Source: Rheinheimera sp. MM224 (GTDB lineage Bacteria > Pseudomonadota > Gammaproteobacteria > Enterobacterales > Alteromonadaceae). From it: a DNA stretch of 64,000 bases. This document shows, one piece after another, positions 36,836-54,224 of this stretch. The stretch spans positions 992,001 to 1,056,000 of the forward strand of contig NZ_OX352320.1 of NCBI RefSeq assembly GCF_947090785.1, read 5' to 3'. Each line of letters begins with the position of its first letter. The stretch's first letter is position 1. Below the pieces are notes generated by a model. That model did not search any database. It was not told where the DNA came from and worked only from the letters and a program-made list of their open reading frames with translations. The position numbers were made by a program, and so were the translations under genes.

Positions 36836-37195
36836 TGGTGGAGCCGGGGGGATTTGAACCCCCGTCCGAAAAACCTAGATCGTCGGTACTACATGCTTAT
36901 CCAGTTATTTAGTTAACCCTATGAGCGCCAGCTGGCAGGCTATCGTCGGGCGAGTCTGATTGGTTTTAGCATCTTGGCTCCAGACAAAGCCGCCATGCGA
37001 TCCTATTAGGGGTGATCTTCCAGAGTCTCAGCTTATAGGCATGCGTGAGGGGAAGAGCGCTCTACTGCTTATTAGGCAGCGAGTGCGTATGTTTCGTCGT
37101 TTGCGACTACTAGTTTGCGGCTTTTTTACGAGGCCTACCGCACCTCGGCATGCACCTAAGAGTTCGTGAATCCCGTCGAATCCAGTATCGGCCCC
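36836..37195 (-). ncRNA. ssrA: Transfer-messenger RNA
   Basis: The minus strand starts GGGGCCGATACTGGATTCGA, the conserved tmRNA 5' end, and finishes with the T-arm GGGGGTTCAAATCCCCCC, GGCTCCA and encoded CCA, together 360 nt. The tag frame (minus strand, 37104 to 37075) reads GCA AAC GAC GAA ACA TAC GCA CTC GCT GCC and two TAA stops, giving ANDETYALAA. tmRNA rescues stalled ribosomes with SmpB, whose gene lies 168 bp upstream on the same strand. Confidence 0.97.
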
Positions 37196-51226: not shown

Positions 51227-51247
51227 CTGCTGATTTACTATAAAAAG

Positions 51248-51271
51248 ACCGGCTTTGATGCCGGTTTTTTT
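51248..51271 (+). terminator. tyrS terminator
   Basis: ACCGGC (51248-51253), loop TTTGAT, GCCGGT (51260-51265), then T6. The A-run to the left may let it also act on the convergent regulator gene. Confidence 0.88.
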
Positions 51272-51284
51272 ATAGAGTTTGCTG

Positions 51285-51833
51285 TCAGCTGGCTTGTTGT
51301 AAACGGGCGAAAAGCAGTTTTTGTAATTCAGTCTTAAATTGCAAAGGCTCAAAAGGCTGGCGCAGCCAAATGATATCCATCGTCAGTTTTTGCTGAGGAT
51401 CTTCGGCCGATAACAATGCCAGTTTTACCTGATGTTGTGTCAGTTCCTGCTGCAGCATCGGCAGATCTATACCTTGCTGGTCAGCCGTCATCAACACCAG
51501 TTCTGGTTTACGCTCGCCCATCATCAACAATGCATCCACAGCGTTACGGGCATACTGTAATTCAACCGGGAAATGCCACTGCTGACATAACACCTGTAGT
51601 AATTTGAAAAAATCTGCATCCAGGTCAACGCATAACAGATGCGTCAGAGGTTGCGATTTTTGCCTTTTATGCAACAAACTCAGTAAAGATTCCTGCACTA
51701 TACGTCGGTGTCCACCTGGTGTTTTCCAGGCACTTAATAAGCCTTGTTCAACCCACAGCTGGATAGTTCGTACTGAAACACCTAAAAGAGTGGCCGCTTG
51801 TCGGGTAGAAAGAAGTTGATGTTGCTCTGACAT
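51285..51833 (-). CDS. HTH (excisionase/MerR-type) regulator with degenerate receiver-like domain
   Basis: From ATG at 51833 the protein has 182 residues. Residues 8-58 are a MerR/excisionase-type winged helix: LLSTRQAATLLGVSVRTIQL and TPGGHRRI. Residues ~65-180 follow the beta-alpha pattern of a response-regulator receiver (LTHLLCVDLDADFFKLLQVL, PELVLMTADQQG, VKLALLSAED, WLRQPFEP). The phospho-acceptor Asp at the end of beta-3 is replaced by Thr and the usual Lys by Arg, so it is probably not phosphorylated. It is divergent from the SPFH gene, and TTTGAT/ATCAAA inverted repeats fill the shared gap, suggesting it controls both. Confidence 0.82.
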   Translation of the reverse strand: MSEQHQLLSTRQAATLLGVSVRTIQLWVEQGLLSAWKTPGGHRRIVQESLLSLLHKRQKSQPLTHLLCVDLDADFFKLLQVLCQQWHFPVELQYARNAVDALLMMGERKPELVLMTADQQGIDLPMLQQELTQHQVKLALLSAEDPQQKLTMDIIWLRQPFEPLQFKTELQKLLFARLQQAS

Positions 51834-51848
51834 AATGATTTTTCTGAT

Positions 51849-51878
51849 TTGATTAAATTTATCATATTTATCAAATGA
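51849..51878. promoter_or_regulatory. TTTGAT inverted repeat next to regulator start
   Basis: ATTTGAT (51849-51855) and ATCAAAT (51872-51878) are an exact inverted repeat with a 16-bp centre, 15 bp upstream of the regulator's start codon. Half-sites equal those of the dyad at 51962. Confidence 0.6.
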
Positions 51879-51961
51879 GCTTGTGTCAATCAACGGATGG
51901 CTTTTTACAGTCAATTGCATGCTTTTTGTACTTATTTACTTGCACTTTTTTTAAATGAAGC

Positions 51962-51990
51962 TAATTTGATATTAAATTGATATCAAATTA
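51962..51990. promoter_or_regulatory. 11-bp dyad operator next to SPFH gene
   Basis: TAATTTGATAT (51962-51972) and ATATCAAATTA (51980-51990) are a perfect 11-bp inverted repeat with a 7-bp centre. Its right edge touches the ribosome site AAGAGG of the SPFH gene. It is a likely operator for the divergent HTH protein. Confidence 0.7.
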
Positions 51991-52000
51991 AGAGGTCGTG

Positions 52001-52852
52001 ATGAAAGAGTATCTGGCAACAAGCCGCAGTGGTTTGATGATGTTAGCTGTACTTCCTGCAGTCTTTGTTTTATCCGGTTTTGGCCTGCTGGTTTTAGGCG
52101 GTCCTCTGAAATTGGTTGCCATATTGGCACTGATTTTAGTGGGGATTGGCTTTTTCGGTTTCTATATGGTGCAGCCAAACCAATGCGCTGTGCTGCAGCT
52201 GTTTGGCCGTTACGTCGGTTCAGACTTACAAACGGGCTTACGTTGGGCTAACCCTTTTTACAGCAAACAAAAAGTATCGTTGCGGGTGCGCAACTTTGAA
52301 AGCGGCAAACTCAAAGTGAATGATCACAGCGGTAATCCGGTAGAAATCGCCGCCGTTGTGGTATGGAAAGTGGTAGACAGTGCTGAAGCCGTGTTTGAAG
52401 TGGAAGATTATGAGAACTTTGTCAGCATCCAAAGTGAAGCGGCTTTGCGCTTTTTGGCTTCGAGTTATCCCTATGAGGCGGTGGAAGATATAGATATCAG
52501 CCTGCGCAGCAATGGTCCTGAAGTGACAGATTTACTCAAAGCTGAAATCCAGGCTCGTCTGGACAAAGCTGGTGTTGAAGTGCTGGAAGCCCGTATCAGT
52601 CATTTGGCGTACGCGCCGGAAATTGCCAGTGCTATGTTGCAACGTCAACAGGCAAGAGCTGTAGTGATGGCGCGTCAGCAATTGGTTGAAGGTGCAGTGG
52701 GTATGGTGGAATTAGCTTTAGCCCGTTTGTCGGAAAAAAACATGGTGCAGCTGGATGAAGAACGTAAAGCCGCCATGGTCAGCAATTTGTTAGTGGTGCT
52801 TTGTGGTGATCATCAGGTACAACCTGTGATCAATACCGGCACTTTGTATTAA
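52001..52852 (+). CDS. SPFH/band-7 membrane protein
   Basis: ATG at 52001 has AAGAGG 5 bases before it and gives 283 residues. Two hydrophobic segments at the N-terminus (~12-60: [20 protein letters not shown] and [14 protein letters not shown]) are followed by an SPFH domain (~60-240): [40 protein letters not shown] and ILE-type [24 protein letters not shown] proteins form membrane-bound oligomeric cages. The small RHH gene follows after 12 bp. This SPFH-RHH pair recurs in Gammaproteobacteria from memory, but its role is not established. Confidence 0.9.
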
Positions 52853-52864
52853 GCGGAGACAGCA

Positions 52865-53047
52865 GTGTCGAAAAAAGCTTTTGCGTTACGTATTGATGAA
52901 ACAGTGCTGCAGGCTTTGCAGCACTGGGCTGATGATGAGTTTCGCAGTGCGAATGGCCAGATTGAATATGTATTACGCGAAGCATTAATTCAGGCTGGAC
53001 GGCTGAAGAAAAAGCCTCCGACAGAGCCTGCTGCAGAGCCGGATTAG
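52865..53047 (+). CDS. Small Arc-type ribbon-helix-helix protein
   Basis: GTG start with GGAG before it gives 60 residues. The sequence KKAFALRIDETVLQALQHWA and SANGQIEYVLREALIQAG fits a ribbon-helix-helix DNA-binding fold (one strand, two helices), with a Pro/Glu-rich tail. It is 12 bp after the SPFH gene, so they are one transcript. It could be a DNA-binding partner or a small cage-associated factor. Its stop overlaps the convergent TetR gene by 4 bp. Confidence 0.83.
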   Translation: MSKKAFALRIDETVLQALQHWADDEFRSANGQIEYVLREALIQAGRLKKKPPTEPAAEPD

Positions 53048-53619
53048 CTTAAAGCACGGACCAGTAGCAGTGCTTGTTTTTTAGCATGCTGAGCCACGGT
53101 GGCATCCGCATGCACTAAAGCCATGCTGATGGCGCCTTCTTTAAGTATCATCAAGCCATCAAGCAATAAAGACTGTGCTTCTTCTGGCAGGTGATAACTC
53201 TGAAGGTGAGTGTTCACTAAGTGTTTCACCTTGAGTTTATGCTGAGCACAGAGCTGCAATACAGCACTGTCTGGTCCATGGTATTCGGCTGCACAGTTTT
53301 GAAAGTAACAACCAAAAAAAGGCCCTAAGACTTGTGCCTTGCCTTCAAACCATAGCGTTAATGCATCAAACAACTTTTCTACCGGACTCATCGGATCGGC
53401 GCTGGACAGTTGCTGTTCCAGCCACTGATAAAAGCGCTGATGCCGAAGCTCCAATGTGGCCATCAACAGCTCATCTTTGCTGACAAAATGGTGATACAGC
53501 GTTTTTTTGGCAATAGCAGACTGTTCTAAAATCTGATTAATACCTACAGCATGCACACCATGGCGGTAAAACAACGTTAAGGCTGTTTCTACAAGCTGCT
53601 GTTTTTTATCCTGTTCCAT
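53044..53619 (-). CDS. TetR-family regulator
   Basis: ATG at 53619 follows GAGGG and gives 191 residues. The N-terminal HTH (VETALTLFYRHGVHAVGINQ, SAIAKKTLYHHFVSKDELL) is typical of TetR; the remaining helices form the ligand and dimer domain (LWFEGKAQVLGPFFGCYFQN). It is divergent from the HPP gene and a strong paired palindrome lies between them, so it should repress both. Confidence 0.92.
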   Translation of the reverse strand: MEQDKKQQLVETALTLFYRHGVHAVGINQILEQSAIAKKTLYHHFVSKDELLMATLELRHQRFYQWLEQQLSSADPMSPVEKLFDALTLWFEGKAQVLGPFFGCYFQNCAAEYHGPDSAVLQLCAQHKLKVKHLVNTHLQSYHLPEEAQSLLLDGLMILKEGAISMALVHADATVAQHAKKQALLLVRALS

Positions 53620-53648
53620 AAAAGCCCTCAGCATAGTTGATACTTAGC

Positions 53649-53707
53649 TTGACACAGGTAGACCAGTCTGTCTACAATGCAATTCGTTGGTAGACAGACT
53701 GGTCTAC
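53649..53707. promoter_or_regulatory. TetR operator pair overlapping the HPP promoter
   Basis: GTAGACCAGTCTGTCTAC (53658-53675) and its exact reverse complement (53690-53707) are 14 bp apart; each arm is itself nearly palindromic (GTAGAC...GTCTAC). A plus-strand promoter TTGACA (53649-53654), 18 bp, TACAAT (53673-53678) is covered by the left arm. Repressor binding would block RNA polymerase directly. Confidence 0.9.
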
Positions 53708-53723
53708 TTTGTGAGGTGATACT

Positions 53724-54224
53724 GTGACTGAACATAAAATCTGGGTGCAAGCTTTGCTGGCTGGTTGTGGTGCAGCTTTGGTCATGGCGCTGTTAGCTTT
53801 ATTGCAGCAATGGCAGCAGTTATGGCTGGTTGCTCCTTTTGGTGCCACAGCAGTGATTTTATTTGCCTTGCCGGATAGTCCGCTTGGTAAAGCAAAAAAT
53901 GTGATAGCAGGGCATTTTCTGGCTGCACTGATTGGCCTGACTTTTGTTCATGTTTTTGGTTTAACCGTATGGAGTTTGTCTGTTGCAGTGGGGTTATCTA
54001 TAGGTCTGATGGTGCTATGGAAAATTACTCATCCACCAGCAGGCGCTACTACCTTACTTATTATGTTAACGGCGCCGGACTGGTGGTTTTTATTCAATCC
54101 TGTGCTGACAGGTTCTGTGTTGATGGTGTTGGTGGCTCATTATTATCATCAGAGCCATAGGAAAGGCCATCAACATTTGGTTAAACGTAAAGCTGCAGCA
54201 GCAAATACCAAAGCGGAAGACTGA
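53724..54224 (+). CDS. HPP-family membrane protein
   Basis: GTG start with GAGGTG before it gives 166 residues. Four or five TM segments are evident (VQALLAGCGAALVMALLALL, WLVAPFGATAVILFALP, HFLAALIGLTFVHVFGLTVW, ILLIMLTAPDWWFLFNPVL-like). The signature HPPAGATT is present. HPP proteins are small integral membrane proteins, some linked to nitrite transport in plastids; the bacterial substrate is unknown. Expression should be controlled by the divergent TetR protein. The 3' end overlaps the convergent AEC gene by 44 bp. Confidence 0.87.
   Translation: MTEHKIWVQALLAGCGAALVMALLALLQQWQQLWLVAPFGATAVILFALPDSPLGKAKNVIAGHFLAALIGLTFVHVFGLTVWSLSVAVGLSIGLMVLWKITHPPAGATTLLIMLTAPDWWFLFNPVLTGSVLMVLVAHYYHQSHRKGHQHLVKRKAAAANTKAED

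Follow-up and report, generated by a model that had tools for sequence, protein, structure and literature searches.

A recurring pair of genes for an SPFH membrane protein and an Arc-like ribbon-helix-helix protein, with a predicted tandem operator, in Rheinheimera sp. MM224 and other bacteria

The genome of Rheinheimera sp. MM224 (4.64 Mb, one contig) carries HTH, SPFH and RHH open reading frames within the 64,000-nucleotide stretch of DNA analysed here, referred to below as the window. The layout given in a preliminary description, in which an HTH gene is divergent from an SPFH gene and a gene for a 60-aa ribbon-helix-helix (RHH) protein, is confirmed in its coordinates, including the intervening 167-bp gap at 51834-52000. 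The features of the locus are:

51238-51275, no strand assigned: terminator-like stem-loop between tyrS and the HTH gene (consensus match only, both strands)
51285-51833, minus strand: ORF for an HTH (excisionase/MerR type) plus degenerate receiver protein (TIGR01764, PF12728, weak PF00072); lineage-specific neighbour
51844-51889, minus strand: promoter-like site of the HTH gene, TTGACA-17-TATGAT (11/12 consensus match), with an overlapping repeat
51967-51985, no strand assigned: predicted tandem palindromic operator TGATATTA-AAT-TGATATCA, 11-bp period, 15 bp 5' of the SPFH ATG
52001-52852, plus strand: ORF for an SPFH/Band 7 membrane protein of 283 aa (Pfam Band_7, E 2.8e-25; AlphaFold2 mean pLDDT 87)
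52823-52849, plus strand: SPFH codons 275-283, encoding the C-terminal tail P-V-I-N-T-G-T-L-Y that is conserved in RHH-bearing rows
52865-53047, plus strand: ORF for an Arc-type RHH protein of 60 aa (P22 Arc profile match, operator co-occurrence)

The gene labels tyrS and anmK used here are ones that we take from recognition of the sequence. At 53044-54221 of the window, the last 4 bp of the RHH gene are shared with a convergent TetR-family gene, which is followed by a divergent gene for an HPP transmembrane protein; these two genes also adjoin RHH in Rheinheimera faecalis (L003), whose SPFH protein is identical in sequence to that of Rheinheimera sp. MM224. Elsewhere in the window, positions 36836-37195 hold a tmRNA gene with the tag ANDETYALAA.

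In a domain scan, the HTH protein matches TIGR01764 (E 6e-11) and PF12728 (E 9e-11), and its receiver match is weak (PF00072, E 0.026, 15.1 bits with a cut-off of 30.2). Alignment with paralogues that keep both residues shows the acceptor Asp replaced by Thr and the Lys by Gln, so the earlier reading of a receiver-like domain lacking the phospho-Asp, a pseudoreceiver, was correct; the orthologue in genome G111 has Gly at the acceptor position. The start of the ORF is taken as 51833, which is common to that orthologue, and a further-out start at 51920 is possible. A paralogue in the same genome (G000:C1:940077, L142) and the one at L143 have an intact receiver (D-L-Q-M-P, K-P) at 44% identity, and upstream of the intact-receiver paralogue lies TTGATAAAAATACAAAATATGATA, which resembles the HTH-side repeat of the window.

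The HTH gene had been proposed to form a three-gene unit with SPFH and RHH, and its distribution does not bear this out. Orthologues scoring >300 bits occur in 2 of 147 same-family genomes (G000 and G111, both beside SPFH), whereas SPFH occurs in 69; any HTH or receiver match at E<=0.001 is found in 46, G000 and G111 included. The orthologue is likewise present in 2/80 genome_contigs loci (the best 80 of at least 589 SPFH relatives), and among 82 loci tested the HTH gene was seen only at the window's own locus, in R. faecalis and in Rheinheimera sp. A13L. The order anmK-tyrS-SPFH-RHH is present without HTH in the same-genus genomes G045 and G083; tyrS lies about 1.5 kb 5' of SPFH in Rheinheimera UBA8519 (L005), also without HTH, and about 3 kb before SPFH in G137, where the HTH gene is absent. 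In the genomes examined, HTH stands beside SPFH in three Rheinheimera lineages only. On this distribution we reject the HTH gene as a module member. Judged from sequence, it is a newcomer, a Rheinheimera-specific neighbour outside the conserved module, and it may add a control layer in that genus.

By the same kind of comparison, SPFH and RHH are an old two-gene pair that recurs across phyla. Among the best 80 of at least 589 confirmed SPFH relatives in genome_contigs, RHH lies downstream of SPFH in 77 loci from several phyla, within about 0.5 kb in 76 of the 77 and at 1.15 kb in the other (L070). The record titles name Pseudomonadota, Acidobacteriota, Actinomycetota, Bacteroidota, Planctomycetota and one Clostridia bin; some of these records are metagenome bins, and their phylum labels may be wrong. 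In the sample of 147 same-family genomes, SPFH is present in 69 (a fragment in G088) and RHH in 67, and all 67 RHH genes adjoin SPFH, separated by 3-255 bp as measured from where the SPFH match ends. The phylum sample gave SPFH in 28/299 genomes and RHH in 26/299, every RHH gene being adjacent to SPFH (26/26). SPFH was found in 13/360 genomes of the class sample, where 9/11 RHH-profile matches adjoin it; the other two are weak (E 6e-7 and 8e-6) and belong to other Arc-like genes, with SPFH absent from the 3.5 kb fetched. The family, phylum and class samples overlap in a few genomes. Plasmid records extend the pair to Deinococcus, Nonomuraea, Acetoanaerobium, Alphaproteobacteria and Bacteroidales.

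The extra ORFs between SPFH and RHH in 20 wide-gap loci vary with lineage. Many wide-gap loci of Lysobacterales (L041, L067, L075 and others) apparently encode a hydrophobic protein of ~90-110 aa between the two genes, which would make a three-gene operon in those loci, and in Aliiglaciecola and Paraglaciecola (L031, L039) this place is occupied by an ORF of ~65 aa whose start, M-x-W-E-Y-K-V, resembles DUF4177. An SPFH relative of 51% identity also occurs in four phage records (OR846799, OR848109, PQ520051 and OR846655, labelled as Listeria or Enterococcus phages), possibly through bacterial contamination.

The HTH/SPFH gap contains two inverted repeats, one near each start, as the preliminary description had noted: 51962-51990 on the SPFH side (14-nt arms, 93% match) and 51844-51879 on the HTH side (13-nt arms, 85% match). 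They are linked by a 10-nt direct repeat (90%), and both contain TTTGAT. The claim that they are a single operator type with the same half-site did not hold, since the HTH-side repeat ATTTGATAAATATGATAAA..ATCAAAT and the SPFH-side box, a tandem palindrome with the consensus TGATATCA-N3-TGATATCA, are different types. The HTH-side repeat overlies the -10 of the near-consensus TTGACA-17-TATGAT site (two promoter-like sites were found, with a shuffle mean of 2.5, i.e., no excess). It is kept in the four HTH-bearing loci, the shuffle comparison having covered the SPFH-side box alone, and is probably the HTH gene's own putative autoregulatory site.

Rather than being absent from relatives, the SPFH-side repeat is kept well outside Rheinheimera, tens to ~200 bp before SPFH. 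It is visible in 11/11 printed upstream regions, with or without HTH, from a set of 18 made up of the window's locus and its nearest relatives; the remaining 7 entered the scoring. Scoring used TGATATCA-N3-TGATATCA over 400 bp upstream and the first 90 bp of the gene, with shuffles for the 109-locus set only. The box of the window scores 15/16, a value reached by 0/100 dinucleotide shuffles, and in 105/109 loci no shuffle out of 100 reached the score of the locus; the four exceptions are three RHH-less loci and Streptomyces L076 (2/100 shuffles). Vicinamibacterales locus L028 has three box repeats with the 11-bp period. Within the Rheinheimera sp. MM224 genome, the SPFH-side site is the sole box with <=1 mismatch. 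The 147 same-family genomes contain 75 such sites, as opposed to 2 for a control pattern, and 64 of these precede SPFH, 48 as exact copies and 16 with a single mismatch. All 48 exact boxes stand before SPFH genes having RHH, and there is no box before the two RHH-less SPFH genes in this sample. Three RHH-bearing genomes (G004, G058 and G111) have no box at <=1 mismatch, G111 scoring 13/16. A further 19 genomes gave 12 boxes at this threshold in 11 genomes, 11/12 of them at SPFH, and 8 genomes had none; in G448 the sole such box is on a different contig from SPFH.

Because the box accompanies RHH with or without HTH, we assign the SPFH-side operator to RHH; it most likely belongs to the Arc-like protein and not to the HTH protein. 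In its sequence the RHH protein lies at the margin of the Arc family, with a match to Pfam Arc PF03869 (E 8e-4, 19.6 bits, single sequence) just under the cut-off of 20.4. Searched as a profile against the PDB, it has its best matches to solved structures in pArc (1u9p, E 2.7e-9) and P22 Arc (1arq, E 3e-4). Residues L8, R9, R27, S28 and N30 are invariant in a 29-row alignment, which keeps the ribbon Arg and RSxN and has a variable C-terminus. The DNA contacts of P22 Arc we take to be Q9, N11 and an Arg; the family mostly has A/S/P at the first position and P/A/L at the second, and keeps the Arg. Palindromes of 8 bp one helical turn apart would be the type of site used by cooperative RHH dimers, in line with the spacing of Arc sites. 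The comparison of RelB with Arc, in the passages of PMC2812701 used here, underlies this reading. Annotated names for RHH are inconsistent (hypothetical protein, Arc family, HicB antitoxin, 'PTS ascorbate transporter'), so the SPFH-RHH pair is easily overlooked; examples are 'HicB family antitoxin' in Qipengyuania (L206, 2216-2407) and 'PTS ascorbate transporter subunit IIC' in Deinococcus sp. QL22 (L212, 2241-2438).

The SPFH protein belongs to the SPFH domain family (Pfam Band_7, E 2.8e-25). Its N-terminus has two hydrophobic helices (11-31 and 36-51), a predicted membrane anchor modelled by AlphaFold2 as a helical hairpin; the SPFH domain follows and then a long helix (206-245), the whole resembling the stomatin/HflK/prohibitin fold. 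The counts of Lys and Arg per row (1.5 in the N-terminal flank, 0.7 in the loop and 1.3 after the second helix) weakly favour a hairpin with both ends inside. The C-terminal tail is of low confidence in the monomer model, with pLDDT 54 over residues 271-280 and 46 over 281-283. Among RHH-bearing rows, P275, N278 and G280 are present in 75/75 and Y283 in 72/75. A tail conserved yet flexible fits a short binding peptide, and the pattern would equally fit a peptide that folds only within an SPFH ring. In an AlphaFold2 model of a read-through SPFH-RHH fusion, no docking of the tail was seen (pLDDT 43 and 37 over 271-290, single RHH protomer). RHH proteins function as dimers, and giving RHH as one protomer made this docking test an unfavourable one.

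In an alignment of 33 SPFH proteins, the C-terminus departs from G-[ST]-[LI]-[YH] precisely in three RHH-less loci. This gave a prediction that was then tested on more loci. Over 158 loci in total, the tail ..NTG[ST]LY is kept in 143/146 with RHH and 0/12 without, and a box of >=13/16 is present in 142/145 assessable RHH-bearing loci and in none of the 12 RHH-less ones. The first set comprises 128 loci, the initial three RHH-less loci included. Its 122 RHH-bearing members have the box in 120/121 assessable cases and the tail in 117/122 by the strict pattern, or 122/122 allowing two further residues or Cys; its 6 RHH-less members have neither box nor tail. The five strict-pattern misses, all counted as kept, are four with two residues after the Tyr and one GSLC, the latter from L167 (G140), which ends so despite RHH and an exact box. 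This set left out four duplicates (L149-L152) and two broken SPFH genes, and L052, cut by a contig end, is the one locus outside its box count. Of the broken genes, L055 is frameshifted and has RHH and a 15/16 box; L166 is truncated and has neither RHH nor box. Fisher p-values for the 128-locus set overstate independence, because L001 and L003 are almost the same and some species, or close ones, may be represented in more than one collection. In the second set, 14/14 RHH-bearing loci have box and tail and 4/4 RHH-less loci have neither. The third set has 10 RHH-bearing loci, with box in 8/10 and tail in 7/10 (GNVHG, GTLNM and GTLNH being counted as misses), and two RHH-less loci, both from Deinococcus, with neither. 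Box or tail deviates despite RHH in Bosea, Rhizobium, Streptomyces and two Bacteroidales records.

Close relatives are split in the same way. Deinococcus radiophilus and D. proteolyticus are RHH-less and end in NSGR, and two RHH-bearing Deinococcus end in NAGSLY; G016, from the window's own family, is RHH-less and ends in TGSISQ among RHH-bearing relatives. Within the E-value limits used, RHH is absent genome-wide from all ten RHH-less genomes searched (G016, G161, G207, G466, G627, G661, G707 and the genomes of L009, L077 and L081), some of which are incomplete (G466 75%; 1.3 Mb for L009). On a tree of 111 SPFH proteins, built with the tail columns excluded, RHH changes 6 times. Restricted to well-supported branches, the tree gives 2 independent pairs, and with all branches taken 6; these pairs are as expected or equal and none is opposite, a non-significant result. 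An earlier 81-row tree gave 3 and 4. Six of the 12 RHH-less SPFH proteins, at 36-48% identity, are divergent and perhaps represent an outgroup in which RHH was never present. With independent losses few (2-6), these comparisons point to a coupling between SPFH tail and repressor but fall short of proof.

We consider it likely that SPFH and RHH form a two-gene operon with its own operator, autorepression by RHH and feedback through the tail. The parts of this model differ in strength. That RHH is a dedicated autorepressor is highly probable: two Arc-like RHH dimers (three in one locus) would occupy the 8-bp palindromes, spaced by one turn of the helix, and bound RHH would repress its own SPFH-RHH operon, no other clear target having been found in the genome. 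That the SPFH tail is the partner surface for RHH has about an even chance. The flexible tail (..NTG[ST]LY) may contact the RHH protein, and the oligomer state or amount of SPFH in the membrane might then set free RHH, a local feedback from scaffold to promoter by sequestration or co-repression. A predicted operon that encodes both scaffold and repressor, and is the repressor's sole target, would form a closed feedback loop. Of the unit proposed at the outset, the scaffold and one DNA-binding protein, RHH, with its own operator are supported; the HTH protein as a second one is not. The most far-reaching version, a phylum-spanning feedback in which the tail binds the Arc-like repressor and assembly or disturbance of the microdomain sets operon transcription from one operator per genome, we put forward tentatively, at somewhat less than even chances.

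The main competitor, unlikely in our estimate, is that RHH acts simply as an autorepressor and makes no contact with SPFH, the tail serving ring assembly or another partner and being lost by relaxed or shifted function. The small number of independent RHH losses, the undocked tail in the fusion model and the divergence of half of the RHH-less relatives, which may be another subgroup, are all in keeping with this; the parallel split among close relatives (TGSISQ in G016, NSGR versus NAGSLY in Deinococcus) argues against it. A second proposal, that the HTH/pseudoreceiver protein regulates SPFH-RHH by binding both repeats, would explain the divergent orientation of HTH and SPFH, the TTTGAT shared by the repeats and the overlap of the HTH-side repeat with the HTH promoter-like site. 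We judge it very improbable, the orthologue being confined to 2/147 family genomes whereas the box tracks RHH regardless of HTH.

RHH might also be a membrane-tethered regulator of a wider regulon, and there are indeed 31 sites with <=3 mismatches in the genome, compared with 10 for a reversed control pattern, and 11/75 family sites at the <=1-mismatch level lie away from SPFH. However, the genome has one site at <=1 mismatch and its three 2-mismatch sites are all inside long open frames; none of the 11 off-SPFH family sites is exact, 6 of the 11 come from genomes lacking this SPFH, and the exact sites are before SPFH in 48/48 cases. At <=1 mismatch, in the own genome and the 147 family genomes, a wider regulon is disfavoured, and we consider it very improbable. 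Similarly improbable is a toxin-antitoxin-like pair with a harmful SPFH and an RHH acting as antidote and autorepressor. RelB/RelE, in the passages of PMC2812701 used here, shows that an RHH antitoxin is able to repress the operon that encodes it while the toxin acts as co-repressor, and one RHH record is annotated as a HicB-family antitoxin; against this, 12/158 loci have SPFH but no RHH, an odd state for a toxin gene, the C-terminus of RHH varies, and SPFH and RHH have no PADLOC match. The suggestion of a defence unit fares no better, for PADLOC gave no SPFH or RHH match at E<=1 and matched the HTH protein to mad1 over the HTH only (5-51). Neither the defence nor the toxin-antitoxin reading has PADLOC support, and SPFH occurs without RHH.

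A unit of scaffold plus DNA-binding protein that could not be matched to a described system was what the preliminary description reported, and our comparison ends the same way. The RHH protein is closest to Arc among solved structures, and the phasing of the palindromes would fit cooperative dimers as in P22 Arc and other RHH autorepressors. It differs from P22 Arc in being chromosomal, in its pairing with SPFH, in the 8-bp TGATATCA half-sites and in the replacement of two of the three base-contact residues that we assume for Arc. The SPFH-NfeD operons (QmcA/YbbK-YbbJ, YuaG-YuaF, YqiK-YqiJ) likewise join an SPFH membrane protein to a dedicated operon partner. Theirs is the NfeD membrane protein, and the one here is a DNA-binding protein of Arc type that has an operator to itself; a Pfam scan found no NfeD among the 5 proteins at 51285-54221. 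Hinderhofer et al. (2009), in the passages used here, describe a conserved NfeD operon structure for SPFH subfamilies 1, 2 and 5, the remaining subfamilies having no NfeD neighbour (PMC2636767). HflK/HflC differ in that hflK and hflC are paired with each other, whereas the SPFH partner here is RHH, and the SPFH protein scores 26.4 and 23.2 bits against the NCBIfam HflK and HflC equivalogs, with cut-offs of 159.4 and 134.4. RelB-RelE and other RHH antitoxin operons are alike in having an RHH repressor within the operon that it controls and a partner that possibly modulates it (PMC2812701, passages as above); in contrast, the partner here is a membrane scaffold that is encoded first, has no toxin-family match and occurs alone in some genomes. 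YdjI-PspA of Bacillus subtilis, in which the SPFH protein localises PspA, is an earlier case of SPFH linked to a protein of the stress response; the abstract of that paper makes no mention of an RHH repressor (PMC8581546). The main text of a 2026 survey of Pseudomonas aeruginosa SPFH proteins is without 'Arc', 'DNA-binding' and 'ribbon' as whole words (PMC13086221). Among the matches listed in the open-access literature, we found no paper on SPFH, band 7 or stomatin paired with RHH, Arc or HicB, and none on the box sequence; one of the matched papers names ribbon-helix-helix in its bibliography alone.

The SPFH-RHH pair gives the impression of an autonomous module in which switch and scaffold have co-evolved. 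Should the tail bind RHH, the membrane state of the scaffold would be what the loop reads out. If the reading as a whole is true, the SPFH scaffold comes with a built-in reporter, consisting of one promoter, one operator and one repressor per genome, and recording the activity of this promoter during membrane stress would reveal the signals to which the scaffold responds.
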